Shown: piece by piece, positions 1,564 through 35,037 of the stretch | Numbering within the stretch: position 1 is the stretch's first letter | Layout of the letters: every line of letters begins with the position of its first letter | Assembly (NCBI GenBank): GCA_001304015.1 | Contig: LJUY01000018.1 | Span: 1 to 39,942 of the forward strand | Source: a candidate division Zixibacteria bacterium SM23_81 | GTDB lineage: Bacteria; SM23-81 | Length of the DNA stretch: 39,942 nt | Direction of reading: 5' to 3' | Position numbers and translations under genes: made by a program | The notes under the pieces: model-generated | Databases searched by the model: none | Seen by the model: only the letters and a program-made list of their open reading frames with translations | Told to the model about the DNA's origin: nothing

Positions 1564-2521
1564 GATCGCTCCTCAGATGGCTCTTCAAATGCTCTCTCAT
1601 GATCTTTTCCACCAAGCCATAGGGATTGCCCTTCCTGTCCACCAACTGCTGAAGCATCTTGTCGAGGGTTTCGCCCTCCTCCATGCGTCCCAGAACGCTT
1701 TCCAGCAATCGGGTCTGAAGCAGTTTCAGGAAGTGTTTCTTGGTCCGGAGTTTGTTTTTCCCATCGAGTTTCTTCGATTCGATCAGAGAGTTGCGGTGTC
1801 TGGATACCCCATAGATCAGCTCAAAAACGCCCTTTCCCAGGACGGCTTCGGTTTTGAATATGGGAGGGGTCCACCCGTCCTGTCGAGGGGGGGCCATCTC
1901 AATCATCACTCGGAGTTCTTGCTCCAGCTTCTCGGCCCCCTCCCGTTCACTCTTATTAATGACAAAGATGTCGGCGATCTCAAGGAGTCCTGCCTTGATG
2001 ATTTGGACCTCGTCTCCGAGTCCGGGGACTGTTACGACGATGGACGTGTGGGCCGTGTTGACAATCTCGACCTCGTCTTGCCCGACCCCTACCGTTTCGA
2101 CGATGATAATGTCTTTGCCCATGGCATCCATGACATTGATGATGTCGTGGGTCGACCTGGAGATTCCTCCCAGATAACCGCGAGTGGCGAGGCTTCTGAT
2201 AAAGACACCGTCATCTGTACTGTGCCGCTGCATCCGGATTCTGTCGCCGAGAATCGCGCCTCCTGTAAAGGGGCTTGTGGGATCAACCGCAACGATTCCG
2301 ATAGTTTTTCCCTCTTTTCTAAATATCTCTACGATCTTATCGACCAGGGTGCTTTTGCCAGAACCCGGCAGTCCTGTTACCCCTATGATATACGCGCGAC
2401 CTGTCTTGGGATAGAGTTTTTTCAGCTCATGCCAGGCATCTGGGAGATCGTCGTCGATATCCCGCATGAGGCGGGCTGCCGCCCTCACATCGCCTTTGAG
2501 TATTCTTTCAGCAAGCCCCAT
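1535..2521 (-). CDS. meaB: MeaB/ArgK-family G3E GTPase, mutase chaperone
   Basis: A 328-residue P-loop GTPase of the MeaB (ArgK/MMAA) family, which gates cofactor loading and protects B12-dependent acyl-CoA mutases from inactivation. Visible motifs are the Walker [13 protein letters not shown] (about residues 47-58), [19 protein letters not shown], the ETVGVGQ region with its Walker B-like acidic residue, and INKSE in place of the usual NKxD guanine-specificity motif. Length fits the family. It precedes and overlaps the mutase large-subunit gene by 29 bp, so it probably serves that mutase and possibly the second mutase at 6.2-8.4 kb. The C-terminal stretch ([12 protein letters not shown] and onward) is the expected dimerisation helix region. 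Confidence 0.95.
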
Positions 2522-2750: not shown

Positions 2751-3923
2751 CTAACCTCTCGGATCGCCCGGAACACCAATGTGACGGGCGATGACGATTC
2801 GCTGAACTTCGCTGGTGCCCTCGCCGATGTCCAGGAGTTTCTGATTCCGATAGTGTCTCTCCACGGCATATTCTTTCATCAGTCCATAGCCTCCGTGGAG
2901 TTGAACCGCATGGTTCACGACCCGATGGTAGGTTTCTGAGCACACCAGCTTCGCCATGGCGGATTCTTTGGTATAGGGTTTCTTATTATCGGCCAACCAG
3001 CAGGCCTTGTAAAGAAGAAGCCTGGCCATCTCTATCTCTGTATACATATCAGCCAACTTGAAAGCGTTGACCTGGAAGGAGCCAATCGCACGGCCGAACT
3101 GTTCCCGCTCATGAGCATATTTCATGGCTAGTTCATAGGCCCCCTGGGCCCCTCCGAGACCCATGGCGGCAATGCTGAGCCTTCCCCCGTCCAGTGTCTG
3201 GAGCATCTGGTGAAACCCCTCACCTTGTCGGCCGAGGAGGTTCTCTTTTGGAACACGGCAGTCGGCAAAGTAGAGTTCCCCAGTATTGGAGGCACGCCAG
3301 ACCATCTTCTTATGCATCGTCTTGGCACTGAAGCCTGGAGTTCCATTGGGCACCAGAATGCAGCTCAGCTCTTTTCGTCCGTCAGGCCTTTTACCCGTTA
3401 CAGCCTGGACAATGCACACCGCGCTGATATCAGAGGAAGAATTGGTTATGAAGATCTTGCTTCCGTTGATGACCCACTCGTCCCCATCCAGGAGAGCCGT
3501 GGTTTTCGAATCTCCAGCATCTGAGCCAGCGTCGGGCTCTGTCAGGCCAAAAGAGGCGAGCTTTTGACCGGCACAGAGGTCTGGAAGCCACTGGCGCTTC
3601 TGCTCCTCGCTTCCAAAGGTGTAGATGGGATAAATCCCCAGGGAATTTCCGGCAGCAAGGGTCGCAGCCTGGGAGCCATCGATCCTGGCAATCTCCTCTG
3701 TGGCGATGATATACCCCATATAGCCGATGTCAGACCCCCCGTACTGTTCAGAGACGAAGGGACCCAACAGGCCGAGCTCTCCCATTCGGTGTGTGAGTTG
3801 AACGGAGAATTCCTCTTTCTCGTCCAGCTCTTCGGCAACCGGCGCGATCTCTTTTTCGGAAAAAGCCCTGACCATTTTCCGGATGCTCTCCAGCTCCTCA
3901 TCAAGGTCAAAATTAAGCGCCAT
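2751..3923 (-). CDS. Acyl-CoA dehydrogenase
   Basis: FAD flavoprotein of the acyl-CoA dehydrogenase family (390 residues from the chosen start) that oxidises an acyl-CoA to the 2-enoyl-CoA and passes electrons to Etf. It shows FGLTEPDAGSDAG (flavin/substrate loop), INGSKIFITN, the LHGGYGLMKEYAVERHYRN region, and IGEGTSEVQRIVIARH with the catalytic-base Glu in the EGT motif. The start at 3923 has GGAGGAG a few bases upstream; a longer frame to 3959 adds 12 unconserved residues. It lies downstream of the DUF35/thiolase-like pair and upstream of meaB on the same strand. Chain-length or branched-chain specificity cannot be read from sequence alone. Confidence 0.93.
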   Translation of the reverse strand: MALNFDLDEELESIRKMVRAFSEKEIAPVAEELDEKEEFSVQLTHRMGELGLLGPFVSEQYGGSDIGYMGYIIATEEIARIDGSQAATLAAGNSLGIYPIYTFGSEEQKRQWLPDLCAGQKLASFGLTEPDAGSDAGDSKTTALLDGDEWVINGSKIFITNSSSDISAVCIVQAVTGKRPDGRKELSCILVPNGTPGFSAKTMHKKMVWRASNTGELYFADCRVPKENLLGRQGEGFHQMLQTLDGGRLSIAAMGLGGAQGAYELAMKYAHEREQFGRAIGSFQVNAFKLADMYTEIEMARLLLYKACWLADNKKPYTKESAMAKLVCSETYHRVVNHAVQLHGGYGLMKEYAVERHYRNQKLLDIGEGTSEVQRIVIARHIGVPGDPRG

Positions 3924-3972
3924 AGGCACTCCTCCGAATTGGCAACTCGCTAATGGCAAGCCTCTCCGTTTT

Positions 3973-6163: not shown

Positions 6164-6571
6164 TCAACCTCGTAGTTTCACATGTCCCTTAACCCACGCC
6201 ACAGCCTCTTCTATTCTGGTTCCAGGGGTGAAGATCGCCTTGACTCCGGCCTTGTTCAACTCTGGAATGTCCTCCTCCGGAATGATTCCACCGCCAATCA
6301 CCGTGATATCGTCGGCTCCCTCTTCCCGGAGAAGCTCTGTGATTCGAGGGAAGAGATAGTCGTGGGCACCTGAAAGGGCACTCAGCCCGATGACGTCCAC
6401 GTCCTCCTGAATGGCTGTCGCCACGATCTGTTCAGGCGTCTGATGGAGGCCTGTGTAGATGACCTCGAAACCGGCATCTCGAAAGCCTCTGGCAATGACT
6501 CGTGCTCCTCTGTCGTGTCCGTCGAGGCCTGGTTTAGCAATGAGAATCCGGATTTTTCGTTTTGGGCTCAC
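6164..6571 (-). CDS. Acyl-CoA mutase small subunit (B12-binding)
   Basis: A 135-residue stand-alone cobalamin-binding domain of the methylmalonyl/isobutyryl-CoA mutase type. The B12 ligand motif DxHxxG is present as Asp17, His19 and Gly22 (GLDGHDRG), followed by the expected Rossmann elements ([13 protein letters not shown] and [12 protein letters not shown]). The length is typical of split-mutase small subunits. The start codon is GTG, preceded by AAAGGAG. It lies 113 bp downstream of the intact large subunit (6685-8358), its most likely partner, though it may also serve the broken paralogue. An 18-bp near-palindrome shared with the MerR gene lies 42-59 bp upstream of the start, suggesting direct regulation. 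Confidence 0.95.
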
Positions 6572-8428: not shown

Positions 8429-10372
8429 TCACTCGCCCATACAAAGGGCATAAACCTGGGCAATAATTTGCTCTGGTTTGAAGTGTTTCAAGGAGATGGC
8501 GCCGGCCGGACATGCCGAATTGCAAGCGCCACAACCCTTGCAAAGAGCTGTGTTGATGGTCATTAGTCGTCTGTAAGGGTCCAGCGTCAGAGCAGCATAC
8601 TCACAGACCTCTTCGCAGATACCACAGCCGGAACAGATCCCCTCGTCGATAGCGGCGATGACAGGGTCGATTGCGACCTTCCCCTGAAAAAGAGTTGTCG
8701 TGGCTCTGGAAGCTGCTCCATGGGCCTGAGCCAAGGTGTCGGCAATGTCCTTGGGACCTTGACAGGTTCCCGCGAGGAAGATGCCATCGACTGCCGTGTC
8801 GAGGGGTCTGAGTTTGGGGTGGACCTCCATGAAAAAGCCATCAGGGCTGAGGGATAGTTTCATAAGATTCTTGAGACTCTGTGCGCCTTGGGACGGAATA
8901 AGACCCGTTGCCAAGACCACTAGATCGAACGCTTTCTCGTAGGGCTGACCAAGAAGGGCGTCTTCACCCCGCAGCACCACCTTATCCCCCCCCCTGAATA
9001 TCTCCGAGGGGACTCCCTTCTTATAGATCACTCCCCTTTTTTGTGCTCGTTCGTAGAGTTCCTCGTATCCCTTTCCGAAGGTCCTCACGTCAATATAGAA
9101 GACCATCACCTCTGAATCAGGGATATTCTCCCGGACCCAAAGCGCCTGTTTTGCGGTGTAGGTGCAGCAGACCCTTGAGCAGTATTCATTGCCCACCTGC
9201 TTGTCCCGTGAACCCACACAATGGACAAAGGCGATGGCCTTTGGAACCGTATCGCCGATCCTTGGGGTCTCCTTGGTCCGCCCCCAAGAGGCGGTCAGCC
9301 TCTCGAATTCCGCGGCCGTGATCACCTGCTGGTACTTCCCGTACCCGAGCTCGGTCTTCTTTGTTGCATCGAAAATGTCGTGGCCCGTGGCCACAATAAT
9401 GGTTCCGACTTGGACTTGTTCGAGTCGACCCTCTTGAGTGAAATCAATCGCCCCCTGAGGGCAGGTCCGTTGACACCGATCGCACGATTGATCCTTGAAG
9501 TGGAGACAGGCCTCGGTATCTATGAGAAGGATCTCGTTTGGACCGTCGGTGGATGGGAAATAAACGGCCTTCCGCGCATTCCGGCGATAGTTGGAATCAT
9601 CGATCACATCAACTGGGCAGGATTTGAGACATTCACCACATCTGTCGCATTTCTCCCCGTCGACGTAATGCGGTCTCCTTCGTATTTCGGCAGAGAACTC
9701 TCCGACTGACCCGTCGATTTTCTCGACCTCAGAGAAGGGCATAACCTCAATTCTGGCATGATTCAGAACGGCCTCGATTCTTGGACCGATCAGTTGCTCT
9801 GCCTCTTCAAGATAAGGGAAAGTCCGATTTAGGCGAGCCACATGGCCTCCGAGCACCGGTGTCTTTTCCACGAGTACCACCCGAAAGCCAGAGGCCGCAA
9901 TATCGAAGGCTGCCTGCATGCCGGCAATACCACCCCCTATGACCAGAGAGCTGGGAGTGACGCTCTTCTCCTGGGCCTGGAGAGGTTCAAGAAGCTGCGC
10001 CTTGGCAATGGCCGCCGACACCAGATCTTTTGCCTTTTCCGTTGCTCTAGTTCGGTCGTGGTGAACCCAGGAACAGTGTTCGCGAATGTTGGCGATTTCC
10101 AGAAAGTAGGGGTTAAGACCCGATTTGGAGATGACATTCCGAAAAGTCCGCTCATGCATGGTTGGCGAACAGGCGGCTACGACGATCCGGTCCAGTCGTT
10201 CCATCTCTATATCCCTCATGATGAGGTCTTGGCCCGGATCCGAGCACATGTAGGTGTAGTCTCTCGCAATGACAACCTGTGGATGATCCTTAGCGAAATC
10301 CCTGACGGCCTCCACATCGACATGGTCGGCTATATTGATCCCACAGTGGCAGATGTAAACACCGATCTTCAT
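8429..10372 (-). CDS. hdrA: HdrA-like FAD/iron-sulfur protein, long form
   Basis: A 647-residue soluble heterodisulfide reductase A homologue. It has the HdrA N-terminal domain (ICHCGINIA near residue 10, YMCSDPGQ, ACSPTMHERTF, NIREHCSW), then an FAD dinucleotide fold (VIGGGIAGMQAAFD, about 144-157), an inserted ferredoxin (CDRCGECLKSCP, then CDRCQRTCP), HCVGSRDKQVGNEYCSRVCC, and a C-terminal two-cluster ferredoxin (CSGCGICEEVC and CKGCGACNSACP). The CxxC after the flavin fold, normally in TLDCSxCILTPKM, is lost (LEEAEQLIGPRI). HdrA is the flavin-bifurcating electron hub in methanogens and many anaerobes. The start at 10372 is fixed by conservation at MKIGVYICHC; the long open frame upstream overlaps the previous gene out of frame. 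Ten bases separate it from the short HdrA-like gene. Confidence 0.93.
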   Translation of the reverse strand: MKIGVYICHCGINIADHVDVEAVRDFAKDHPQVVIARDYTYMCSDPGQDLIMRDIEMERLDRIVVAACSPTMHERTFRNVISKSGLNPYFLEIANIREHCSWVHHDRTRATEKAKDLVSAAIAKAQLLEPLQAQEKSVTPSSLVIGGGIAGMQAAFDIAASGFRVVLVEKTPVLGGHVARLNRTFPYLEEAEQLIGPRIEAVLNHARIEVMPFSEVEKIDGSVGEFSAEIRRRPHYVDGEKCDRCGECLKSCPVDVIDDSNYRRNARKAVYFPSTDGPNEILLIDTEACLHFKDQSCDRCQRTCPQGAIDFTQEGRLEQVQVGTIIVATGHDIFDATKKTELGYGKYQQVITAAEFERLTASWGRTKETPRIGDTVPKAIAFVHCVGSRDKQVGNEYCSRVCCTYTAKQALWVRENIPDSEVMVFYIDVRTFGKGYEELYERAQKRGVIYKKGVPSEIFRGGDKVVLRGEDALLGQPYEKAFDLVVLATGLIPSQGAQSLKNLMKLSLSPDGFFMEVHPKLRPLDTAVDGIFLAGTCQGPKDIADTLAQAHGAASRATTTLFQGKVAIDPVIAAIDEGICSGCGICEEVCEYAALTLDPYRRLMTINTALCKGCGACNSACPAGAISLKHFKPEQIIAQVYALCMGE

Positions 10373-10382
10373 AGGAAGTGTC

Positions 10383-11708
10383 CTAGCTTCGCCCTTCGGC
10401 CAGGCATATGCAGGCCATGGCAGCGGCGCCACTCGCCTGGGCGACCGCATCCGGGATGTCTTTTGGGCTCTGGCAGCAACCGGCCAGGAATACCCCTGGT
10501 TTCGAGGTGGGGATGGTTTCTTTTGTTTCGGCCTCTTTGAAAAAGCCTTCCGGAGTGTGAGAAATCCCCAGCATTCTGCCGAGTTGTTCCGCATCCTGTC
10601 TGGGAACGAGACCGGTTGCCAGCACCACAAGGTCCGTTTCTTCCTCGTAAGGTTCTCCCAGAAGCGTATCTTCTCCACGAATCATGAGGGACTCGCCCCG
10701 TTTATAGATTTCGGATGGATTCCCACGCCTGAAGATGATCTTTTCTTTCTGGACTCGATCGTAGAATTCCTCGTATCCCTTTCCAAAGGCCCTGATGTCC
10801 ATGTAGCAGATCGTGATCTTGGCATCGGGAATCCGCTCTCGAACGAGATGGGCCTGCTTGGCCGTATACATGCAGCACACCCGTGAACAGTATTCGTTTC
10901 CAACGGTCTTGTCTCTGGATCCCACGCACTGAATAAAGACAACCCGTTTCGGCTCTACCCCATTGTATTCGATACTTCCCTTTGTCGGGCCCGACGCAGA
11001 ACAGAGTCTCTCAAACTCGATGCCAGAAAGGACGTTCTCATAGCGCCCATACCCGTATTCCGGTTTTAGTCTTGCATCAAACTGATCGTAACCTGTTGCC
11101 ACCACTATCGCACCGGCCTGAATGGTGACGTTTTCCTCTTTCTGATTGAAGTCGATCGCATGGGTGCCGCAGGCCTTCTGGCATCTCGGTTCTTTTCCAC
11201 ATTTTCCTTTGGTCAACATCAGACAATGGTCTGGATCGATAAGGTACTTCTGAGGAACAGCCTGAGGAAAGGGGATATAGATGGCAGCGCGTTTGCCGAT
11301 ACCCATATCAAACTCGTTGGCGATCCTCGTCCGCTGGACACATGCCTCTGCACAAAGACCGCATCCGGTACATTTTTTCAAATCCACATATCGAGGCTTC
11401 TTCCTGATGGTGATTTGGAAATCACCCATCTCCCCCTGGATCTCGATCACCTCTGAGTAAGTCATCGCCTCGATGTTCGGATGGCTGCCAACTTCAACCA
11501 TTTTGGGTGTCAGGATGCAGGAAGAACAGTCAAGTGTGGGGAAGGTCTTATCCAGTTGGGCCATGTGTCCCCCAATGGTTGGCTCCTTTTCCACCAGGAC
11601 GACCTTGAACCCCTTGTCCGCAATATCGAGGGAGGCTTGCATGCCGGCAATGCCGCCACCAATCACAAGGGCGACTGGGGACTCTATTTTCTGAGCTGGC
11701 ATTTCCAT
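10383..11708 (-). CDS. HdrA-like FAD/iron-sulfur protein, short form
   Basis: A 441-residue HdrA homologue that begins directly at the flavin fold (VIGGGIAGMQASLDIA, residues 15-30). It keeps the HdrA cluster motif TLDCSSCILTPKM (Cys61, Cys64), an inserted ferredoxin (CTGCGLCAEAC, then a CGKEPRCQKAC region), and QCVGSRDKTVGNEYCSRVCC. It lacks both the N-terminal HdrA domain and the C-terminal ferredoxin found in its neighbour, so the two proteins are complementary halves that probably form one complex. The start may be 11708 or the ATG two codons later; neither has a strong ribosome site. It lies between an acyl-CoA dehydrogenase and the long HdrA gene. Confidence 0.92.
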   Translation of the reverse strand: MEMPAQKIESPVALVIGGGIAGMQASLDIADKGFKVVLVEKEPTIGGHMAQLDKTFPTLDCSSCILTPKMVEVGSHPNIEAMTYSEVIEIQGEMGDFQITIRKKPRYVDLKKCTGCGLCAEACVQRTRIANEFDMGIGKRAAIYIPFPQAVPQKYLIDPDHCLMLTKGKCGKEPRCQKACGTHAIDFNQKEENVTIQAGAIVVATGYDQFDARLKPEYGYGRYENVLSGIEFERLCSASGPTKGSIEYNGVEPKRVVFIQCVGSRDKTVGNEYCSRVCCMYTAKQAHLVRERIPDAKITICYMDIRAFGKGYEEFYDRVQKEKIIFRRGNPSEIYKRGESLMIRGEDTLLGEPYEEETDLVVLATGLVPRQDAEQLGRMLGISHTPEGFFKEAETKETIPTSKPGVFLAGCCQSPKDIPDAVAQASGAAAMACICLAEGRS

Positions 11709-11790
11709 ATTCTCATCAGCCGCAATGTCATTTGTGATTATGATTCTTGTTTCTTGTTAAGTGCTTTGCCTTCCTGTGGTCTGTCCGCGA

Positions 11791-12945
11791 TCATTTCGGT
11801 TTTCCTACAAGCGTACTCGCAATTGTGTTTTTTTGAATCTCTCGGGTTCCCTCATAGATTTCCATGATCCTTGCATCCCGATAGAACCGCTCCACCTCGT
11901 ACTCCGTTATGTAGCCGTAGCCGCCAAGTATCTGAATGGCCTCGTCGGCGACCTCTACACTGACCCTTCCGGCGTACAGCTTTGCCATGGAGGTCAACTG
12001 AGGATCAATACGGCCCTGGTCATAATTCCACGCAGCCTTGTACGTCAAGAGGCGAGCCGTCTCGAGCATGGTATACATGTCAGCGAGTTTGTGCTGAGTG
12101 GCTTGGAAGTCCGCGATTCTTCGCCCGAATTGCCGTCTCTCCTTTGCATAGGCAAGGGCCCTGTCAAAGGCTCCCTGGGCGATTCCCAGGGCCTGGGCAG
12201 CTATCTCGATCCGGCTCTCGTCAAAGAACTCCAGAACGTGATAGAAACCTCGGTTTTCCTGACCGATTAGATTTTCCACGGGGACGTGGACTTCGGACAG
12301 AGAGAGCTCTGCCGTTGAAGTCATTCGAATGCCCATCTTGTCGCCAAGCTCGGTGGCTTCAAATCCTGGGGTCCCCCGTTCCACCACGATGGTACTCATC
12401 CCTCGGTGAGGAGGATCAGCCTCTGGGTCGGTCTGACAGAGGATCACAAAGTGGTTGGCCAGTGTTCCATTGGTGATGAAGGTCTTGGTGCCGTTGATGA
12501 CGAATTCCTGTCTGTCCTTTATCGCTGTCGTCGATAGGCGGGTGATGTCGCTTCCATGATCCGGCTCAGTATAGGCGCCGGCAGAAATCGCCTCTCCCAT
12601 TGTCACCGGTGGGAGATACTTCTGTTTTTGCTCTTCGGTGCCGAACCTGAGGATGACCTCAGAGCTAAAATCGGTCAAGGTCAGGGCAACCCCGATGCCA
12701 GAGTCCTGACGGCAGAACTCCTCCACCAGCAGGGCGTTTTCCAGAATTCCGAGCCCCTGACCTCCATATGCTTCAGGAAAATGGATCCCTACGAAGCCCA
12801 GCTTGCAGGCCTTCTGCCAGATGGATTTTGGGAAGGTGTGCTCCCTTTCCAGCTCCATGGCCAGGTCCTTGTCAAACTCTCCCTGCGCAAACTCCCTGGC
12901 GGCACGCTGAATATCCTTCTGTTCATCGCTCAGTTCAAAATCCAT
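11791..12945 (-). CDS. Acyl-CoA dehydrogenase
   Basis: A 384-residue acyl-CoA dehydrogenase family flavoprotein. Motifs are AGAYTEPDHGSD (flavin loop), INGTKTFITNG, RRQFGRRIADFQATQ, ILGGYGYITEYEVERFYRDARIM, and IYEGTREIQ with the catalytic Glu. The ATG at 12945 has GAGG upstream. It sits between etfA (upstream, across a 307-bp repeat-containing gap) and the two HdrA-like genes, so its electrons are likely taken by the encoded Etf. Substrate unknown; butyryl-CoA or another short acyl-CoA is plausible from context only. Confidence 0.93.
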   Translation of the reverse strand: MDFELSDEQKDIQRAAREFAQGEFDKDLAMELEREHTFPKSIWQKACKLGFVGIHFPEAYGGQGLGILENALLVEEFCRQDSGIGVALTLTDFSSEVILRFGTEEQKQKYLPPVTMGEAISAGAYTEPDHGSDITRLSTTAIKDRQEFVINGTKTFITNGTLANHFVILCQTDPEADPPHRGMSTIVVERGTPGFEATELGDKMGIRMTSTAELSLSEVHVPVENLIGQENRGFYHVLEFFDESRIEIAAQALGIAQGAFDRALAYAKERRQFGRRIADFQATQHKLADMYTMLETARLLTYKAAWNYDQGRIDPQLTSMAKLYAGRVSVEVADEAIQILGGYGYITEYEVERFYRDARIMEIYEGTREIQKNTIASTLVGKPK

Positions 12946-13030
12946 CTTGACCTCGTAGTGGAAGAGAGCTCCTGACTCTTACCTGGCTCGGCGTTAAGAT
13001 ATTCCAGCCAGGATCGGTTCTCGGTCGAGC

Positions 13031-13178
13031 AGCGCTTCGCTCAAGGATCGCTCGGCCCGATGGGCTTCGCTCAAGGCAGGATCCCTTGATTTAAATTCTA
13101 GGGTTTCTGCCTCGAGGGGACGAAGTCCCCGATCCTCTGTCCTCAAGTCCCGCGCGGCGGGACGCTCCTCAAGCGAAC
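13031..13178. repeat. Intergenic repeat element, copy 1 (pairs with 18865-19013)
   Basis: About 148 nt, beginning AGCGCTTCGCTCAAGGATCG and ending at CTCCTCAAGCGAAC. It aligns end to end with 18865-19013, with nearly identical outer arms and a diverged centre. Each copy is an imperfect inverted repeat holding two internal hairpins, here GGGGAC-GAA-GTCCCC and GTCCCGC-GCG-GCGGGAC. It lies in the 307-bp gap between etfA and the acyl-CoA dehydrogenase. No protein is evident. Confidence 0.85.
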
Positions 13179-13252
13179 GAAGTTCGGGCTCTGTCTATCT
13201 CAAGGCCAGCCTGTTTTTCCTCGATCCTTTATCCTTGCCCCTTTCTCCTGAG

Positions 13253-14227
13253 TCAAGCAAACGCCTCCTTGACCTTTTCCTTTAGGCTCGGAACGATCTT
13301 GAACAGATCTCCCACGATTCCGTAGTCGGCAACATTGAAGATCGGAGCCTTGGGATCTTTGTTGATTGCAATGATCGTCCCAGACGTCTTCATCCCGGCA
13401 ACATGCTGAAAGGCCCCACTGATGCCGACAGCAATGTAAACTTTAGGTTTCACGGTCTTGCCAGAGGTCCCGACCTGGCGCTCTTTGGGAAGCCATTTTT
13501 TGTCGACCACAGGACGACTGCACGAAAGTGCGGCCCCCAGGGAGTCGGCCAGGTCCTGCACAATGGTGATGTTCTCCTGATCCTTGATGCCCCGTCCAAC
13601 CGAAACCAGGATGGGGGACTGAGTGATATCTACCTCTCCCGCGGCAGCTTCCACATACTCGAGAAACCTCTTGGAGGCGATTTCTTCTGTAAGCGGTGAG
13701 GCTACGTTGACAATCTCGCCGGGCAGGGAGTAATCCTCCGGGGAGAAGGATGCAGGCCGGACGGTGATCAGGTGGGGTTGACCTGGCTTGAGATGAACCT
13801 CAACGTTTAGCTTGCCTCCGTAAACTTGGCGGATGGCTTTGAACCGTGCGTTCACCACCATGACATCGAGACAGTCCGTGGCGATAGGTGCGTTGATCGC
13901 GGTAGCAAGGCTCGGCGCCAGATCCATTCCAAAGGCTGTGTGGCCTATGAGGACGGCGAGGGGGTTCTCCTGTTCAATCAGATTCACGAGGGCCTTGTGA
14001 TAGGCCTCGGAGTTATAATTCTCCAGTTTGGGATCTTCAACGAGCATCACCCTGTTCGCCCGATCTTTGAGCTGATCGGCCATCTTACCAGCGTTGTGCC
14101 CGAGGAGAAGAGCCACGAGAGGCTTTCCCATCTCTTCGGACAGCGTCTTCCCCTTCGTGAGCATTTCAAAAGTAATGTCTCGAAGTTCACCCTGCCGGTG
14201 TTCAGCGAGTATAAAGATATCGTCCAT
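13253..14227 (-). CDS. etfA: Electron transfer flavoprotein alpha subunit
   Basis: A 324-residue EtfA with the C-terminal FAD domain intact: SCSRPVVDKKWLP, QVGTSGKTVKPKVYIAVGISG, FQHVAGM, and IAINKDPKAPIFNVADYGIVGDL. With EtfB it accepts electrons from acyl-CoA dehydrogenases. The ATG directly abuts the etfB stop (TAGATG), so the two subunits are translationally coupled. Neighbouring HdrD- and HdrA-like genes suggest that electrons go to a soluble Hdr-type complex, since no membrane Etf:quinone oxidoreductase is encoded in the window. I cannot tell from sequence alone whether this Etf is bifurcating. Confidence 0.96.
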   Translation of the reverse strand: MDDIFILAEHRQGELRDITFEMLTKGKTLSEEMGKPLVALLLGHNAGKMADQLKDRANRVMLVEDPKLENYNSEAYHKALVNLIEQENPLAVLIGHTAFGMDLAPSLATAINAPIATDCLDVMVVNARFKAIRQVYGGKLNVEVHLKPGQPHLITVRPASFSPEDYSLPGEIVNVASPLTEEIASKRFLEYVEAAAGEVDITQSPILVSVGRGIKDQENITIVQDLADSLGAALSCSRPVVDKKWLPKERQVGTSGKTVKPKVYIAVGISGAFQHVAGMKTSGTIIAINKDPKAPIFNVADYGIVGDLFKIVPSLKEKVKEAFA

Positions 14228-15022
14228 CTAGGCCACCCCTCCCTTCTCCTTGAGTATAGAGACAACCCTCTCGGCAATATTCTCCACCGTCCCCTCGAGC
14301 ATTTCGGCACCCTCTCCAACAGGAGGGAGAAAGACTCGCTCGATAACGGTTTTCGATCCATTCTCCCCCGCCTCATCAGGTTTTATGCCCAGATCCGTAA
14401 GGCCAAGAACCTTGATCTCTTTCTTGGCCACCTTTCGGATTCCCATGATGGAGACATACCTGGGCTCGTTGATACCAGACTGAATGGTGAGAACAGCGGG
14501 AAGTTCGAGATCGAGAATCTCCTCTAGTCCTCCCTCGAGTTCACGATGGACCCTGGCCGTATTCCCCTCAATCCTTTCGATCCCGTTGACAACAGTCGCG
14601 TGATTGATACCGAGCATTTTTGCGAGGGTAGGTCCCACCTGACCGTAGCCATCGTCCTCCGCCTGAACCCCGGTCAGGATCAGGTCGTAGGGCAGCGGTT
14701 TGATGGCCTGGCTCAATACTGTCGCAATCGCGTGCCCGTCGGATCCGGCAAATGCGGAGTCTGTCAAGCGAATTGCCTCGTCGCCTCCCATGGCCAGAGC
14801 CCTCCTGAGCGTCTCATTGGACTCTTCTGGTCCCATTGAGATGACCGTGACAGAGCCGCCATACTTTTCCTTCAGAAGGACTGCCTCCTCCACGGCGTAG
14901 TTATCCCACTCATTGATGTCAAAAACGAGTCCGGCCTTATCGATGCCTTTTCCCGTACTGTCAATGACAATGTCGGCTTCGGCTGTTTCCGGGACCCGTT
15001 TGACACAGACAATGATGTCCAT
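14228..15022 (-). CDS. etfB: Electron transfer flavoprotein beta subunit
   Basis: A 264-residue EtfB. It begins MDIIVCVKRVPE, then shows VFDINEWDNYAVEEA, VISMGPEES, RALAMGGDEAIRL, the nucleotide-site region AEDDGYGQVGPTLAKML, and the C-terminal recognition-loop region ELPAVLTIQSGINEPRYVS that contacts dehydrogenases. Start ATG 15022 is preceded by AAAGGAGG. It is the first gene of the etfBA pair, downstream of the HdrD-like gene across a 216-bp repeat-containing gap. Confidence 0.96.
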   Translation of the reverse strand: MDIIVCVKRVPETAEADIVIDSTGKGIDKAGLVFDINEWDNYAVEEAVLLKEKYGGSVTVISMGPEESNETLRRALAMGGDEAIRLTDSAFAGSDGHAIATVLSQAIKPLPYDLILTGVQAEDDGYGQVGPTLAKMLGINHATVVNGIERIEGNTARVHRELEGGLEEILDLELPAVLTIQSGINEPRYVSIMGIRKVAKKEIKVLGLTDLGIKPDEAGENGSKTVIERVFLPPVGEGAEMLEGTVENIAERVVSILKEKGGVA

Positions 15023-15122
15023 ACATCCTCCTTTCTTGAAGGCCCTGCGCGCCGCAGCTTTCGTTGTACTTTGTCGGTCAAAAAAACAGAAGAATCAACT
15101 CCCTCGGCGCCAGGTTGTAAGG

Positions 15123-15238
15123 GCGTCCCACGCAGCGGGACTTGAGGTTGGAGGCAGAAAACCTCTGGCCTCAAACCTCGAGCGAAGCAGGAGCGGTCCT
15201 CAAACCTCAACCTGCAGCCCACTTCGTGGTGCTGTGGT
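15123..15238. repeat. Intergenic repeat element, related family, reverse orientation
   Basis: GCGTCCCACGCAGCGGGACT at 15123-15142, then TTGAGG, is close to the reverse complement of the right arm of the element at 13031-13178. It is followed by CTCAAACCTCGAGCGAAGC and CTCAAACCTCAACCTGCAG words that complement the TTGAGG arm. It occupies the etfB/HdrD gap and ends at the HdrD stop codon. Confidence 0.65.
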
Positions 15239-16369
15239 TCACAGGGCTTCAACCAGAATTTCGGCGATATCCAGGATCTTTAGCTTCTCCTCGTTGCCGG
15301 TCGTCTTGACGGCGTCCTCGAGCGTCAGTAGACAGAAGGGACAGGCCGTGGCCAGAATCTCTGCACCCATCTCAACTGCATCTCGAATCCGGATTTCTGC
15401 TGAACGGGGGCCCTGATCAGAGGCTTCTACCCACATACGCCCCCCGCCCCCCTCGCAGCAGAGGCTCTTCTCTCTCGATCGGTCGAAATCGATGAAAGTC
15501 ACCCCGGGAATGCTTTTCAGGATCTCTCGTGGCTCATCAAAAACGCCGTTCTGCTTCCCCAGGAAGCAGGGATCATGATAGGTAATCACCCTCTTCATTT
15601 CCTTGGAGAAGGGATTATGCTTCTCAATAGCCTCGGCGATGACCTGCGTATAGTGGCGAACGACCAGTCCATCCTGGGCATAATCATTCTTCATGGCATT
15701 GTAACAGTGGGGAGATGTGGTGACGATGGAGCGAACATTAAGTGCCTTGAAACTCTCTGCGTTTTGCTCCATGAGCATTTCGAAGAGGCCCTCTTCGCCC
15801 ATTCTCCGAATCTCACTTCCACAACAGGTCTCGTCGTTTCCGAGGATGGCAAAGTCAAGGCCTACCTGGCGAAAACATGTAACCATGGATCGGGCCACGT
15901 TCTGCACCCGGGTGTCATAGGCCGCGGTACAACACACAAAATACAGGTGCTCCGCATGGCATTCCTCGGATAGAACCTTCAGGTCAAGTCCCTGGGCCCA
16001 CTCGCTCCTCTTGTTTTTCACTGCTCCCCAGGGATTTCCATACTTGTAAGCGCTTTCAAGGGCTTCGATGACAGTCTTAGGAATATGGCCCTCCTCGATA
16101 AGTGCCGTGCGCATGCCAATGATCAGATCAGAAGGTCGTAACTCTCGGGGGCAGCGGATAGTGCATGTTTTGCAGGCTGTGCACGCCCAGAGATCGTCCC
16201 TTTGATAGATAGACTCTAGATCGTCCAGAACCAGGGCCTCCTGCATGAGGCGTCGGATGTTCAGGGGAGAGTTGAGTGACACGGGGCAGCCGCCTGTGCA
16301 CTTTCCGCACTGGATACAGCCGAACAGCTCATATTTCTCATAGAAAGAATCGTTTTCAACCATTAGCAT
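15239..16369 (-). CDS. HdrD-like iron-sulfur oxidoreductase (fused HdrC + HdrB type)
   Basis: A 376-residue soluble protein with an N-terminal HdrC-like ferredoxin domain (CIQCGKCTGGCP and CTACKTCTIRCP) and two CCG domains as in HdrB/HdrD/GlpC (CCTAAYD with ETCCGSE, then YHDPCFLGK with CCEGGGGRMW). CCG domains hold noncubane [4Fe-4S] centres that reduce disulfides or pass electrons onward. No membrane segment is visible, unlike the membrane DUF224 Etf:quinone oxidoreductases. Placed between an acyl-CoA dehydrogenase and etfBA, it probably links Etf to the HdrA-like proteins. I chose ATG 16369, which has GAGG nine bases upstream; ATG 16378 is possible, and a frame to 16447 is not supported. 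Confidence 0.9.
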   Translation of the reverse strand: MLMVENDSFYEKYELFGCIQCGKCTGGCPVSLNSPLNIRRLMQEALVLDDLESIYQRDDLWACTACKTCTIRCPRELRPSDLIIGMRTALIEEGHIPKTVIEALESAYKYGNPWGAVKNKRSEWAQGLDLKVLSEECHAEHLYFVCCTAAYDTRVQNVARSMVTCFRQVGLDFAILGNDETCCGSEIRRMGEEGLFEMLMEQNAESFKALNVRSIVTTSPHCYNAMKNDYAQDGLVVRHYTQVIAEAIEKHNPFSKEMKRVITYHDPCFLGKQNGVFDEPREILKSIPGVTFIDFDRSREKSLCCEGGGGRMWVEASDQGPRSAEIRIRDAVEMGAEILATACPFCLLTLEDAVKTTGNEEKLKILDIAEILVEAL

Positions 16370-16521
16370 GCGTGACATCCTCGATTTTGCTAAGAATCCT
16401 GAATTCAGGGCGATAGGAGGGGCCCAGAGGCTTCGGCATTGATACAATCGGAGAACACATTGATTTGCAGCTGCTAATGAATATACATTAATTCGTCGAA
16501 AGAATTCACGCGATATGGACC

Positions 16522-17667
16522 TTATCTGCCAAGGATTTCACGAGAAATCACGATCCGTTGCACTTCCGAGGTTCCCTCGTAAAGGGTCGTTCCAATAATA
16601 TCCCTCAGATATCGCTCCACCGGGTATTCCGTGGTATAACCATATCCACCCAGCATCTGAACCGATCGAAGGGCAACCTCTTTTGCCGTCTCTGTGGCAA
16701 GGAGTTTTGCCATGGAAGCCTCCTTGGTAAATCCCTGGCCACTTTCTTTGAGAGAAGCAGCTCTGAGGGTGAGTAGCTGGGCCGCCTCAAGCTCGGTGTA
16801 GCTGTCGGCAATCATCCACTGAATGGCCTGAAACCTGGATAGCTTCTGGCCAAAAGCTTCCCTCTCTTTCACGTACTGGGTTGCATATTCGATGGCTGCC
16901 GATCCGACACCGATGGCCAGGGAGGCGATCCCGATTCGGCCCCCATCAAGCTCCACCATGGCAATTTTGAAACCATCACCCTCCTGACCCAGAAGGCATT
17001 CCCTGGGGATGCGACAGTTGTCAAAGACGAGTTCATGCATGGAAGAGGCCCTGTGGCCCATCTTGGTTTCGGCTTTCCCAATGACAAAGCCAGAGGTTCC
17101 CTGTTCAACTAGAAAAGCACTAATTCCCTTTCCTTTTCGAGCGGTTCTGTCCGTGACGGCCCAGACCACGACGACACCGGCCTGCTCCCCACTGGTAATG
17201 AGGCTTTTCCTCCCATTTAAGACAAAAGAGTCTCCGTCGACTACGGCCATGGCCCTGATGTTTGCGGCATCGGAACCGGTGTGGGGCTCTGTGATCGCAA
17301 AGGCCCCGGCTGGATAATGACCATTGCAGAGTTTGGGAATGTGCTTTTCCTTCAAGGCATCAGATGCAAATTCATAGATGACCTCAGCGACCATGTTAGT
17401 TACAGCGGTGGTTACGGCATGCGAGGCACAGGCCTTCGCGATTTCGGTGACAGCCAGGCTATAAGCCACCGCACCAACCTCCGAACCTCCATACTTTACA
17501 GGGACGTTCATCCCCATCAGTCCAAGGTCAGCCATTTTCTTCAGATTCTCATGGGGAAACTCCTTGTTTTCGTCCAGTTGGGCAGCCACGGGCCTGATGT
17601 GCTTCTCTGCAAAATCCCTGACCATGTCCCGAATCATTTCCTGCTCAGATGTTAACGTGAAATCCAT
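16522..17667 (-). CDS. Acyl-CoA dehydrogenase
   Basis: A 381-residue acyl-CoA dehydrogenase. Key segments are AGAFAITEPHTGSDAAN, LNGRKSLITSGEQ, REAFGQKLSRFQAIQ, MLGGYGYTTEYPVERYLRD, and LYEGTSEVQRIVISREIL with the catalytic Glu. It is the third paralogue of this cluster and lies between the HdrD-like and 3-hydroxyacyl-CoA dehydrogenase genes. The ATG at 17667 is set by the conserved N-terminus; the ribosome site is weak. The short-chain type is suggested by the sequence pattern and by neighbours of the butyryl-CoA oxidation sequence. Confidence 0.93.
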   Translation of the reverse strand: MDFTLTSEQEMIRDMVRDFAEKHIRPVAAQLDENKEFPHENLKKMADLGLMGMNVPVKYGGSEVGAVAYSLAVTEIAKACASHAVTTAVTNMVAEVIYEFASDALKEKHIPKLCNGHYPAGAFAITEPHTGSDAANIRAMAVVDGDSFVLNGRKSLITSGEQAGVVVVWAVTDRTARKGKGISAFLVEQGTSGFVIGKAETKMGHRASSMHELVFDNCRIPRECLLGQEGDGFKIAMVELDGGRIGIASLAIGVGSAAIEYATQYVKEREAFGQKLSRFQAIQWMIADSYTELEAAQLLTLRAASLKESGQGFTKEASMAKLLATETAKEVALRSVQMLGGYGYTTEYPVERYLRDIIGTTLYEGTSEVQRIVISREILGR

Positions 17668-17918: not shown

Positions 17919-18767
17919 TTAGTATGTGTAGAACCCTCTTCCGGATTTTCTTCCCAGATACCCAGCATCAACATATCTTTTGAGGAGGGGGCAGGGACGG
18001 TACTTGGAATCCGCAAAACCCTGATAGAGAACCTCCATGATGGCCAGGCAGGTGTCGAGACCAATCAGGTCTGCCAGTGCCAGTGGCCCCATGGGGTGAT
18101 TCATTCCCAGCTTCATCACTCCGTCTATAGCCTCGAGGCTTCCCACTCCCTCAAATAGCGCATATACCGCCTCATTGATCATGGGCATGAGAATCCTGTT
18201 GGAGATGAATCCAGGAAAATCCTGGGCCTCCAGAGGCGTCTTGCCCATGTGTTCGCTGAGGCTCTTGACTTTCGCAAAGGTCTTATCTGATGTGGCCAAG
18301 CCCCGAATGATCTCCACCAATTTCATCACGGGTACGGGATTCATGAAGTGCATCCCAATCACACGGTCCTGTCTTTCTGTGGCAGAAGCGATCTTAGTGA
18401 TAGAGATGGAGGACGTATTGGTGGCAAGAATGACGTCTTTCCGACAGATTTCATCGAGGCTTTTGAAAATCTCAAGTTTCAGAGACTCGTTCTCTGTGGC
18501 TGCCTCAACCACCAAATCCGCACGGCCCATATTTTCCATTCGGGTCGTTTCGCTGATTCTGGCGATGATTTGGTCTTTGTCCTGTGAGGTGATCTTTTCC
18601 TTCTGAACAGACCGGTCGAGGTTCTTGCCTATGGTTGCCAATCCCTTCTGAACGAGTTCGTCTGTGATGTCGCTCATGACCACGCTAAGGCCAGAGGCAG
18701 CCGCGACCTGAGCAATGCCGTTTCCCATCTGTCCAGCCCCGATGACGCCAACAGTTCTTATTTCCAT
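17919..18767 (-). CDS. hbd: 3-hydroxyacyl-CoA (3-hydroxybutyryl-CoA) dehydrogenase
   Basis: A 282-residue NAD(P)-dependent dehydrogenase of the Hbd/PaaH type, oxidising 3-hydroxybutyryl-CoA to acetoacetyl-CoA. The Rossmann motif GVIGAGQMGNGIAQ is at residues 7-20. The catalytic-region motifs ATNTSSISI, GMHFMNPVPVMKLVEII (His-Asn) and SNRILMPMINEAV follow, and it ends DAGYLGRKSGRGFYTY. Length fits the stand-alone bacterial form with no fused enoyl-CoA hydratase. A strong GGGGGGAGGT site precedes the ATG. It is flanked by repeat elements on both sides, between thiolase and acyl-CoA dehydrogenase genes. Confidence 0.96.
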   Translation of the reverse strand: MEIRTVGVIGAGQMGNGIAQVAAASGLSVVMSDITDELVQKGLATIGKNLDRSVQKEKITSQDKDQIIARISETTRMENMGRADLVVEAATENESLKLEIFKSLDEICRKDVILATNTSSISITKIASATERQDRVIGMHFMNPVPVMKLVEIIRGLATSDKTFAKVKSLSEHMGKTPLEAQDFPGFISNRILMPMINEAVYALFEGVGSLEAIDGVMKLGMNHPMGPLALADLIGLDTCLAIMEVLYQGFADSKYRPCPLLKRYVDAGYLGRKSGRGFYTY

Positions 18768-19082: not shown

Positions 19083-20258
19083 TTAGCGCTCAACAATGAG
19101 AGACACCGCCTCCCCTCCACCCAGGCAGAGAGTAGCCATGCCCAGTTTCGCGTCCTCATCCTTCATGGCGTATAGAAGAGTTGTCAGAACTCGCGCTCCG
19201 CTCGCCCCTATAGGATGTCCGAGGGCAACGGCCCCGCCCCTCACATTGACCTTTCGGGTATCGAGGCCAAGCTCCCGGATTATTGCCACCGTGGATGCAG
19301 CAAAGGCCTCATTGATCTCAAAGAGGCCGATCTCCTCGATGGAGAGGCCAGCTTTCCGAAGCACCTCGGGAATGGATTTGATGGGCGCGACCAGGACGTC
19401 CTCCAACTCAACTCCTGCCGCGGCCTGGGCTCCCACCGTCGCCATGGGAGATACACCCAACTCCTTTGCCTTTTTGATGGACATCAGGACCAGGGCACTT
19501 GCACCGTCACTGATTTTTGAAGCGTTACCCGCCGTCACGACCCCTCCGTCCTTGAAAACAGGCTTTAGCCTGGCCATGGCCTCCAGATCAGGCTGCCGTG
19601 GCCCCTCGTCTCGGTCAAGAATGATCGGGCTGCCCTTCTTCTGGGGTATCTCAACCGGGAGAATCTCTGCTCTGGACTTGCCCTCAGCGGTTGCATTAAG
19701 AGCTTTTTCATTTGACTCGAAAGCAAACCGATCCTGATCTTGGCGAGAGACCTGAAACTTCTGAGCGACCAATTCCGCCGTGTAGCCCATGTGGAAGTCG
19801 CTTACTACATCCCACAGACCGTCATGGACCATCGCATCGATCAATTTTCCGTCCCAAAGCCGGTATCCATCCCTGGCCTTGTCGAGATAGTAGGGGGCCC
19901 GGCTCATGGATTCCATGCCTCCTGCGACGACAACCTCAGCATCTCCCGCCATGATGGAATGGGCACCCATCATCACGGCCTTCAATCCAGAACCGCAGAC
20001 CTTGTTGATTGTCGTGGCGCACGATTCCATAGGGAGTTTGGCCTTGATCATGGCCTGACGTGCAGGATTCTGCCCAAGGCCATGGGGAAGAACATTTCCC
20101 ATGATGACCTCGTCGACGTCATCCTTTTCGATTCCCGATCGTCGAATCGCCTCCGTGATGACCAAAGCCCCGAGGTCTGTTGCTGAGAAACCACTCAGCC
20201 CCCCCATGAAGTTTCCTATGGGCGTTCTGACCGCACTTGTGATAACAACTTGATCCAT
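19083..20258 (-). CDS. Acetyl-CoA acetyltransferase (thiolase)
   Basis: A 391-residue type II thiolase with all catalytic elements: nucleophilic Cys in NKVCGSGLKAV, NEAFA, GGAVALGHPIGASG with the catalytic His, and CLGGGEA with the second Cys. It would cleave acetoacetyl-CoA (or a short 3-ketoacyl-CoA) to acetyl-CoA. This contrasts with the Cys-less thiolase-like protein at 4676-6070. I chose ATG 20258 (MDQVVITSAVRTP), which has AAGGAG upstream; a TTG seven codons earlier is less likely. It is the first enzyme gene downstream of the MerR regulator and is probably co-transcribed with it (40 bp). Confidence 0.96.
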   Translation of the reverse strand: MDQVVITSAVRTPIGNFMGGLSGFSATDLGALVITEAIRRSGIEKDDVDEVIMGNVLPHGLGQNPARQAMIKAKLPMESCATTINKVCGSGLKAVMMGAHSIMAGDAEVVVAGGMESMSRAPYYLDKARDGYRLWDGKLIDAMVHDGLWDVVSDFHMGYTAELVAQKFQVSRQDQDRFAFESNEKALNATAEGKSRAEILPVEIPQKKGSPIILDRDEGPRQPDLEAMARLKPVFKDGGVVTAGNASKISDGASALVLMSIKKAKELGVSPMATVGAQAAAGVELEDVLVAPIKSIPEVLRKAGLSIEEIGLFEINEAFAASTVAIIRELGLDTRKVNVRGGAVALGHPIGASGARVLTTLLYAMKDEDAKLGMATLCLGGGEAVSLIVER

Positions 20259-20298
20259 CGCTTCCTTCTCCTTGGTCAAAGAACTCTGTCAAATGTCC

Positions 20299-20772
20299 CT
20301 ACTCCACCCCCTCGTTCAGCTTGGATTTGATTCTTTCTTGATAGTCGATGATCTGGTTTTTGAGTTTGCTAAGATTCTGAATTCGCTCGTCAATGCGATT
20401 CGTATGATGTTGTAGGAGTTCGAGCAGTCTCGGGAGCACCTTGCGGTTGGTTCGATGGATCTGATAGATGTCCTCAAGCTCCTGCATCTCCGCCAGGGTC
20501 AGTCCCAGGTGTTTCAGACGCTTGACAAATCTCAGCCGCTGGCAGTCTTTGTCTGTGTAGATTCGTTTTCCCCCCTCTACACGTTTCACCGAATTGAGAA
20601 GCCCGATTTCCTCGTAATACCGAATGGTTCGGGTGGTGAGTCCCACCATGGTAGCCAATTCACCGATCTGATAATGGGTCGACTTTTCCAGGGAGGTTTT
20701 TCTCCTCCTCATATGTCGGTCAGTCATCTCCGCATCGGTCTCCGCCGTTTTAGGGCTCTGGTAATGGGCCAT
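20299..20772 (-). CDS. MerR-family transcriptional regulator
   Basis: A 157-residue MerR protein. The winged helix-turn-helix starts at YQIGELATMVGLTTRTIRYYEEIGLL (about residues 33-58), followed by GGKRIYTDKDCQRLRFVKRLKHLGLTLAEM and a coiled-coil dimerisation helix (HHTNRIDERIQNLSKLKNQI). No metal-binding Cys cluster or ligand domain is visible. It resembles regulators of acyl-CoA or branched-chain catabolism (LiuR type), an inference. ATG 20772 lacks a ribosome site and the first 30 residues are not HTH; the ATG at 20727 is an alternative. It heads the minus-strand catabolic cluster, with a candidate operator just upstream. Confidence 0.92.
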   Translation of the reverse strand: MAHYQSPKTAETDAEMTDRHMRRRKTSLEKSTHYQIGELATMVGLTTRTIRYYEEIGLLNSVKRVEGGKRIYTDKDCQRLRFVKRLKHLGLTLAEMQELEDIYQIHRTNRKVLPRLLELLQHHTNRIDERIQNLSKLKNQIIDYQERIKSKLNEGVE

Positions 20773-34179: not shown

Positions 34180-35037
34180 ATGGAAGAGCTGTTTACGACG
34201 AAGGACATCGAGAGAATAACCGGACTCAAGGCGGGAAGGATTCGCTATTGGCAGAAGACCGGCTTCATTCGGCCCGGGGTTCTTAGGGAGAATGGTCATT
34301 ACTACTATACTTTTGCAGACCTTGTCTGTTTCAAAACGGCAAAGGAGCTTTTAGACGGAGGCGTTTCCCTGAGGAAAGTCAGGTCCAGCCTGGAGAAGCT
34401 GGAGAGGATTCTTCCAGCTATGAAGAGGCCCCTTGCCCGGCTTCGAATCAGTGCCGACGGAAAGGGGGGACTCGTTGTGCGGCACAGGGGCGTTCGCTTT
34501 GAGCCAGAGGGGCAGATGCTCTTAGACCTTTCCGCCGGGGAGGCAGAGAAGCGATCACAGATAAAATCATTCCCTCTGAGCTCGGATGTTCAGTACTGGT
34601 TTGAAAGGGGATGTGCCCTGGATTCCGTTCCTGGAACTCTCGATCTGGCCATTGAGGCATACTGGAAGGCTCTCGAAATTCAGCCGGACTTCCCCGATGC
34701 CCTCACCAACCTGGGGAACATCTATTACCATCAGGGGGAACTGGAAAAGGCGAAAGAGTGCTATCACAAATCTCTGTCCCTCGATCCGAATCACATAGCG
34801 GCCAACTTCAACATGGGTAATCTCCTTGAGGAGAGAGGACGTCTCCTTCAGGCGATTTTCTATTACGAGAAGGCCCTATCGAAAGACCCCCTATTTGCCG
34901 ATGCCCATTTCAATCTCGGTCTTGTCTATGAGAAACTACAGCTGAAAAAACGGGCAAAACCTCACTGGAGCAAATTCATCGAGCTCAAACCGCATTCCGA
35001 GGAGGCAACCCTCGCCAGAAAGTTCCTCGAAGACTAA
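34180..35037 (+). CDS. MerR-type HTH fused to TPR repeats
   Basis: A 285-residue fusion. Residues 1-75 form a MerR-like winged helix (FTTKDIERITGLKAGRIRYWQKTGFI, YTFADLVCFKTAKELLDGGVSLRKVR). A linker (80-135) follows, then at least three TPR units (AYWKALEIQPDFPDALTNLG, CYHKSLSLDPNHIAANFNMG, YYEKALSKDPLFADAHFNLG). The typical MerR coiled coil and ligand domain are replaced by TPRs, suggesting protein-controlled rather than small-molecule control. The architecture occurs in Desulfobacterota-like genomes but I know of no assigned function. The start at 34180 has no clear ribosome site. No target operator was identified. Confidence 0.88.
   Translation: MEELFTTKDIERITGLKAGRIRYWQKTGFIRPGVLRENGHYYYTFADLVCFKTAKELLDGGVSLRKVRSSLEKLERILPAMKRPLARLRISADGKGGLVVRHRGVRFEPEGQMLLDLSAGEAEKRSQIKSFPLSSDVQYWFERGCALDSVPGTLDLAIEAYWKALEIQPDFPDALTNLGNIYYHQGELEKAKECYHKSLSLDPNHIAANFNMGNLLEERGRLLQAIFYYEKALSKDPLFADAHFNLGLVYEKLQLKKRAKPHWSKFIELKPHSEEATLARKFLED

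Follow-up and report, generated by a model that had tools for sequence, protein, structure and literature searches.

A soluble EtfAB-HdrD-HdrA gene module beside acyl-CoA dehydrogenases in a candidate division Zixibacteria genome and its possible role in acyl-CoA oxidation

The hardest step in syntrophic fatty-acid oxidation is the transfer of electrons from butyryl-CoA (about -10 mV) to H2, formate or NADH. The accepted answer for butyryl-CoA oxidation is the membrane oxidoreductase EMO, working with menaquinone and a redox loop run in reverse (PMC8805022), and some candidate butyrate oxidisers without FixC/X and quinones have no obvious alternative (MAG9, PMC13422317). A stretch of 39,942 nt from candidate division Zixibacteria bacterium SM23_81 (hereafter the window; contig LJUY01000018.1, assembly GCA_001304015.1) was analysed for a run of genes in which an electron transfer flavoprotein (EtfAB), a soluble HdrD-like protein and two HdrA proteins stand beside acyl-CoA dehydrogenases (ACADs). 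On balance, these genes would seem to encode a soluble complex coupling acyl-CoA dehydrogenation to the HdrA flavin site. If true, such a complex would be the missing alternative, with the coupling flavin in HdrA instead of Etf, and possibly a second general solution to the energy problem of fatty-acid-eating anaerobes.

Each ingredient of the run has a described relative, namely EMO, Hdr, Bam, the tandem HdrA of anaerobic methanotrophic (ANME) archaea, and HdrL. EMO/EtfD (Syntrophus, Syntrophomonas and mycobacteria; 9ojn) shares with the module a homologous CCG and HdrC-like region, the positions His583 and Cys584, EtfBA alongside and the same Etf class; EMO has an N-terminal haem-b membrane domain and a quinone site, whereas the window HdrD pairs with HdrA and has a cysteine at the position of EtfD Thr539. 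The methanogen complexes HdrABC-MvhAGD and FdhAB-HdrABC share the HdrA core with its FAD residues and clusters, and the HdrC- and HdrB-like domains that are fused in HdrD; unlike them, the window has neither an intact HdrB CCG motif nor MvhD, its HdrA is split, and the partner is EtfAB/ACAD. ANME archaea have HdrA heterodimers, tandem or fused, as well as HdrA-NfnB fusions (PMC9012536). In the heterodimers the N-terminal domain and Cys197 are lost in a complementary manner as in the module, and the HdrA-NfnB fusions and HdrL of Desulfobacterium autotrophicum (PMC2702500) carry an NfnB/GltD-like insert, as does the short HdrA of the window's relatives. As described in these sources, their partners are HdrBC/HdrD, FdhAB or MvhD, and a set of EtfAB and acyl-CoA dehydrogenases is not among them.

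Class II benzoyl-CoA reductase (BamBCDEFGHI) resembles the module in having a soluble His-type HdrD (BamD) beside HdrA (BamE) and a CoA-ester enzyme coupled to HdrA, and resembles relatives of the window also in the addition of FlpD and NuoEF. In the window, by contrast, the CoA-ester enzyme is an acyl-CoA dehydrogenase acting via Etf, HdrD belongs to a different clade, and no AFOR-type BamB stands beside HdrD-HdrA, as it does in loci L091 and L108. Bcd-EtfAB, CarCDE and LctBCD are also systems of anaerobes in which EtfAB accompanies an acyl-CoA (or lactate) dehydrogenase, but the window EtfB has no bifurcating motif and falls outside their group, and coupling would be at HdrA. Moorella MetVF-HdrABC-MvhD is likewise an HdrA complex with a non-disulfide enzyme at its high-potential end, but that enzyme is a different one, and HdrB and HdrC are separate. 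In the open-access papers searched (subscription papers and preprints lay outside the scope), no account was found of a soluble EMO-type HdrD combined with EtfAB and an HdrA pair beside ACADs, and literature searches for Etf-Hdr names gave nothing, which agrees with a previous reading of the window made from its letters alone (the sequence-only reading), namely that this appears not to be a standard characterised complex.

That reading had given the gene order as ACAD, HdrD-like, EtfB, EtfA, ACAD, HdrA-short and HdrA-long. All seven genes were confirmed on the minus strand, within a run longer than had been stated. In the direction of transcription it comprises a MerR-family regulator, thiolase, 3-hydroxybutyryl-CoA dehydrogenase (HBD), ACAD1, HdrD, EtfB, EtfA, ACAD2, HdrA-short and HdrA-long, followed 3' on the same strand by a mutase large subunit, its B12-binding subunit, a thiolase-like protein, an OB-fold protein, ACAD3 and MeaB (Table 1).

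HdrD (375 aa) contains zero hydrophobic segments of membrane-helix length by a simple hydropathy scan. Its top match among solved structures was mycobacterial EtfD (9ojn_A, E 6e-58, residues 52-374), and the matches to HdrC and HdrB were 1e-18 and just 5e-4, respectively. In EtfD, His583 completes the noncubane cluster and makes it non-catalytic, Thr539 stands in for an Hdr cysteine, and Cys584 ligates the neighbouring linear cluster (PMC13083937). By phmmer alignment, these residues correspond to H220, C182 and C221 of HdrD (numbers count from the codon preceding the ATG), so that HdrD has the EtfD capping histidine and an extra cysteine known from several anaerobic EMOs of the compared set. 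The five-Cys CCG motif of HdrB is not intact in the first CCG domain (TSPHC, with Ser and His in place of CxxC), and the motif of the second domain is complete. HdrD is accordingly regarded as the soluble half of EMO/EtfD minus the haem-b membrane part. Since it keeps the capping histidine, it is probably an electron wire, and since this histidine replaces the HdrB arrangement, a disulfide is an unlikely acceptor. A role as disulfide reductase was rejected on the un-HdrB-like first CCG motif. The sequence-only reading of HdrD as fused HdrC and HdrB therefore holds for the HdrC-type part and the CCG domains, but not for a full substitute of HdrB and HdrC.

EtfB groups with the AMP-type Etf 1o94 and EMO-linked Etfs in the tree (support 98), and it has DDGYGQ, not the DGDTxQ of the three bifurcating Etf structures compared. 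The EMO-linked Etf of Syntrophus has been reported to be non-bifurcating (PMC8805022). EtfB thus appears by motif and tree to belong to the non-bifurcating Etfs, both of which speak against bifurcation at Etf; it follows that the splitting or joining flavin, if any, sits in HdrA, as had been proposed for the window.

In methanogen HdrABC, the N-terminal cluster ligand Cys197 is donated by the partner HdrA of the dimer. HdrA-short has neither the N-terminal nor the C-terminal ferredoxin domain but has the Cys197 equivalent (C64, FPTLDCSSC), whereas HdrA-long has both cluster domains and has lost Cys194/Cys197 (FPYLEEAEQ). This split was identical in six of six module-type tandem loci (window, L065, L067, L070, L152 and L153), whereas both domains and the cysteines were present in all intact single HdrAs inspected (L045, L055, L061, L062, L063, L064, L069, L071 and L072) and, over its extent, in the truncated single HdrA of L066. 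The same complementarity has been proposed for ANME HdrA heterodimers by Chadwick et al. (PMC9012536). The two window HdrAs would be complementary halves of one heterodimer, a relation that the sequence-only reading had missed, and the pattern fits an obligate one. Both retain the FAD-region residues Lys409 and Cys386/399/403/404. In the tree, HdrA-short and HdrA-long each cluster with their counterparts in L152/L153, and a larger clade unites them with the single HdrAs. The NfnB/GltD-like insert is present in L045, L152 and L153 and absent from both window HdrAs. Identity of the pair with QmoAB was rejected: no FlpD match was found in HdrA-long and no QmoC gene within the run, and in the tree the pair sits with the single HdrAs of the module. 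As a separate observation, HdrA genes at L049 (1749-4238, minus strand), L154 (near 2505) and L157 (near 8748) carry a TGA codon, in frame, precisely where Cys197 would stand (LDCS/T-TGA-ILGPKM), suggestive of selenocysteine as the shared ligand of the cluster; an in-frame TGA in the sister HdrA-long was dismissed, the annotated ORFs being intact without read-through.

To examine conservation, a four-sequence HdrD alignment was scanned against 85,000 species genomes and yielded at least 80 loci; the counts and clades below refer to the HdrD loci among the matches listed. The 60 nearest genomes included three others of the host phylum. A tree of 116 HdrD/EMO proteins places the window HdrD in a clade of 14 (SH-aLRT 100), soluble throughout, apart from the membrane EMO clade (44) and a second soluble clade (34, including BamD-type). 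HdrA or HdrL adjoins HdrD in all listed members of the window clade except L046, at a contig end. EtfBA lies in the same locus in 10 of 12 window-clade members (L046 and the window left out), compared with 5 of the 34 members of the second soluble clade (Fisher p 4e-5, a guide only, as the sequences are related). Record labels in the window clade are Deltaproteobacteria, Pseudomonadota, Actinomycetota (Geothermincola), Bacillota (Syntrophomonadaceae, digester bins), Chloroflexota, Syntrophorhabdaceae, Bathyarchaeota and Thermoproteota, that is, at least five phyla with Archaea included, although most records are metagenome bins whose labels or contig assignment may be wrong. Recurrence in Bacillota, Actinomycetota, Bathyarchaeota and Thermoproteota places the arrangement far from chance, and the gene-order check proposed with the sequence-only reading was thereby answered: the order recurs in related and distant genomes of several phyla. 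The gene set is a genuine recurring module with a plausible, if unproven, mechanism. Further Etf-HdrD-HdrA sets outside the window clade, in L055 (same phylum as the host) and in L083, L094 and L133 (Chloroflexota), suggest repeated assembly.

A sister operon, covered by L060 plus L152, has the same genes in the same order (57-80% identity) with additions. It comprises thiolase, HBD, ACAD1 and HdrD, next NuoE, NuoF and a formate-dehydrogenase-like NuoG/molybdopterin protein, and after these EtfB, EtfA, ACAD2, a short HdrA with an NfnB/GltD-like insert, HdrA-long, mutase, ACAD3 and MeaB; L153 repeats the middle part. Orthologues in the same position were found for thiolase (70% identity in L060, 53% in L045) and ACAD2 (76%, L152/L153), and the ACAD1 orthologue in L060 has 75% identity. 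A second module lies on contig C49 of the host's own genome (L045 3158-16177, minus strand), in the order thiolase, HBD, ACAD, ACAD, HdrD, EtfB, EtfA, flavodoxin, HdrL, FlpD and enoyl-CoA hydratase. Together the loci form a natural series of HdrA partner exchange, with a single HdrA, a split pair, an NfnB-like insert, FlpD with flavodoxin, and NuoEF-FDH. Judged by these relatives' genes, the probable partners of the HdrA flavin are NAD(P)H, flavodoxin or ferredoxin, and formate.

Some clusters in the scan depart from this pattern. In L083 and L133 (Chloroflexota) the order is HdrA-HdrD-EtfA-EtfB and EtfB groups with bifurcating Etfs, so that one cluster may possibly hold two bifurcation sites. 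In L065, L155 and L159 (Chloroflexota) the trio of HdrA-short, HdrD and HdrA-long has no Etf with it; FrhB-like, FlpD and FAD-binding fumarate-reductase-like proteins lie nearby, and the trio seems to serve another partner. L091 (1043-12645, record labelled Acidobacteria) encodes AFOR, HdrD, a fused double HdrA, FlpD, NuoE, NuoF and a NuoG-like protein and is, by gene content, class II benzoyl-CoA-reductase-like. The HdrD of the second host module (L045 10560-11914, minus strand) is without an internal stretch including the second CCG cysteines and shows a frame change; intact relatives exist, and it is taken as a broken gene or an assembly error.

The window is part of contig C99 of a genome bin of 3.07 Mb. 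The absence of a membrane oxidoreductase, claimed previously for the locus, was borne out in the operon and extended to the host genome assembly, in which no ETF-QO, no full-length EMO and no CCG protein with transmembrane segments was found, although at 92.6% completeness the absence of ETF-QO and EMO is no proof. The soluble Etf-Hdr conduit beside acyl-CoA dehydrogenases, also part of that reading, is supported. Sulfate-reducing growth, which it had offered as a setting, was rejected, no NIR_SIR domain or DsrAB sulfite reductase being found in the host genome. The genome has Rnf, two FeFe-hydrogenases, NiFe hydrogenase sequences and NuoE-NuoF-FDH, an NADH-type formate dehydrogenase. With a full-length EMO query, no membrane-length match was found in the bins G000, G001, G002, G061, G063, G064, G066, G067, G068, G069 and G072, for most of which completeness is not established (G063 is under 1 Mb); G060, G062, G065 and G070 each have a membrane-length match. 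Nine module genomes besides that of the host are among those in which EMO was not found.

As for the substrate, the mutase large subunit has Phe and Gln at the positions of Tyr89 and Arg207 of methylmalonyl-CoA mutase (MCM; alignment with solved MCM and 2-hydroxyisobutyryl-CoA mutase), a combination that points to isobutyryl-CoA mutase. Considered alongside the two ACADs, HBD and thiolase, these residues suggest isobutyrate/butyrate oxidation as the pathway.

In the proposed mechanism, butyryl-CoA-type substrates would reduce ACAD1 and ACAD2, which would pass single electrons to the non-bifurcating EtfAB. EtfAB would dock onto HdrD, taken to be what remains of the EMO/EtfD wire in soluble form, and the noncubane-type and cubane clusters of HdrD would conduct to HdrA. 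HdrA-short would give Cys197 to the N-terminal cluster of HdrA-long in an asymmetric heterodimer, the N- and C-terminal cluster domains being carried by HdrA-long alone, and at the FAD of HdrA the electrons from Etf, at high potential (near -10 mV), and those from ferredoxin, at low potential, would be exchanged with an intermediate carrier, NAD(P)H or formate being the likeliest. Run oxidatively, confurcation would dispose of acyl-CoA electrons without a quinone; Rnf could make reduced ferredoxin from NADH at the expense of the ion gradient, and hydrogenases or the NuoEF-type formate dehydrogenase would clear the product. The module is thus read as a soluble acyl-CoA:ferredoxin/NAD(P)H (or formate) con/bifurcating complex, for which we infer the physical association, the direction and the low-potential partner or intermediate carrier. 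A bolder proposal, held tentatively, is that EtfAB, EMO-derived HdrD and split-HdrA confurcation form a widespread and unrecognised quinone-free route of acyl-CoA oxidation, one that replaces EMO in numerous anaerobes, bacterial and archaeal, and was assembled more than once.

Several observations weigh against the proposed complex, and there are alternatives to it. The low-potential input modules of the relatives (MvhD/FlpD, NfnB-like domain, NuoEF-Fdh) are absent from the window run, which leaves a gap for the low-potential or NAD(P)H partner and does not bear out the full HdrABC-like complex expected from the letters alone. The same absence would suit a plain conduit without bifurcation, from Etf through HdrD and HdrA to one acceptor (ferredoxin, flavodoxin or a membrane complex encoded elsewhere). 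Direct electron transfer from butyryl-CoA to NAD+ was computed to cost about +52 kJ for each electron pair at -280 mV, so that an uncoupled path to NADH-level carriers cannot run forward, and the FAD-site residues are kept in both HdrAs; the plain conduit is considered very improbable.

Confurcation with two ferredoxin electrons is itself computed at about +10 kJ (ferredoxin -500 mV, NADH -280 mV), becomes -2 kJ at -500 and -250 mV, and still costs +13 to +40 kJ with ferredoxin at -420 mV. It can proceed only if ferredoxin is strongly reduced and the NAD pool oxidised, conditions that Rnf could pay for. The same complex could instead run reductively, reducing enoyl-CoA (crotonyl-CoA-type) while HdrA bifurcates electrons of NAD(P)H or formate to ferredoxin, much as Bcd-EtfAB with the bifurcating flavin relocated to HdrA. 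This direction is computed to be exergonic by about 25-40 kJ under standard-like potentials, Rnf is present and could use the ferredoxin, the top NCBIfam match of the ACADs (for ACAD1, AcrC) is acryloyl-CoA reductase, under the cut-off, and HdrA complexes that bifurcate are known (PMC5861303). The neighbouring thiolase, HBD, isobutyryl-CoA-mutase-like enzyme and acyl-CoA synthetase, on the other hand, look catabolic, and the Etf groups with EMO-linked oxidative Etfs; neither fixes the direction, and reductive operation is judged rather unlikely.

EtfAB and Hdr might also be co-transcribed and functionally separate, with Etf serving another acceptor and HdrD-HdrA acting independently, for example as a disulfide reductase. 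L065 and L067 (Chloroflexi) carry HdrA-short, HdrD and HdrA-long without adjacent Etf, so that the Hdr trio can take other partners, and gaps of 82-307 nt between some genes of the run, some above 150 nt, leave room for separate transcripts. Against the proposed complex it also counts that the full module coexists with EMO in G060, G062 and G070 and that the histidine signature of HdrD is common to BamD-type HdrDs and thus not Etf-specific, for which reason its use as a marker of an Etf partner was rejected. The capping histidine is present in nearly all EMO-type sequences, the window clade and BamD-type HdrDs and absent from more distant Hdr-type sequences, and may mark wires to non-disulfide partners generally. 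Against separate function stand the adjoining Etf in most of the clade, in Bacteria and Archaea, the lack of an alternative Etf acceptor among the genes found in the host genome, and the EtfD-type histidine in place of the HdrB motif, and this alternative is considered improbable.

Table 1. Coordinates of the genes of the run in the window, with the basis of each assignment
Feature	Position	Strand	Basis
MerR-family regulator, directly upstream of run	20299..20772	-	Pfam MerR_1
Thiolase, acetyl-CoA acetyltransferase type	19083..20279	-	Pfam Thiolase_N 2e-94
3-Hydroxybutyryl-CoA dehydrogenase (HBD)	17919..18767	-	NCBIfam PRK05808 475.9 bits (cut-off 408)
Acyl-CoA dehydrogenase 1 (ACAD1)	16522..17667	-	Pfam Acyl-CoA_dh N/M/C
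HdrD/EtfD-like soluble protein, HdrC-type 2x[4Fe-4S] and two CCG domains	15239..16363	-	
EtfB, non-bifurcating type	14228..15022	-	Motif and tree
EtfA, FAD-binding	13253..14227	-	Pfam ETF, ETF_alpha
Acyl-CoA dehydrogenase 2 (ACAD2)	11791..12945	-	Pfam
HdrA-short, FAD/thioredoxin-reductase core and inserted ferredoxin	10383..11708	-	
HdrA-long, N-terminal cluster domain, FAD core, C-terminal 2x[4Fe-4S]	8429..10372	-	
Coenzyme-B12 mutase large subunit, isobutyryl-CoA-mutase-like F/Q residues	6685..8358	-	Pfam MM_CoA_mutase
Mutase B12-binding small subunit	6164..6571	-	Pfam B12-binding 1e-26
Acyl-CoA dehydrogenase 3 (ACAD3), same operon run	2751..3959	-	80% identity in sister operon
MeaB-type mutase chaperone GTPase	1535..2521	-	Pfam MeaB 1e-89

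HdrD most likely starts at the ATG at 16363. The mechanical ORF of HdrA-long (8429-10678) overlaps HdrA-short, and its start is most likely the ATG at 10372 (MKIGVYICHCG), not 10678. A second mutase gene (379-1563, minus strand) is cut short after LRTQQIIA. What remains of its C-terminal part runs on in a different frame towards the contig end and lacks some of the residues expected; the case is taken as a broken gene or an assembly error. Elsewhere in the window, an ORF at 34180-35037 (plus strand) encodes a MerR DNA-binding domain fused to tetratricopeptide repeats.

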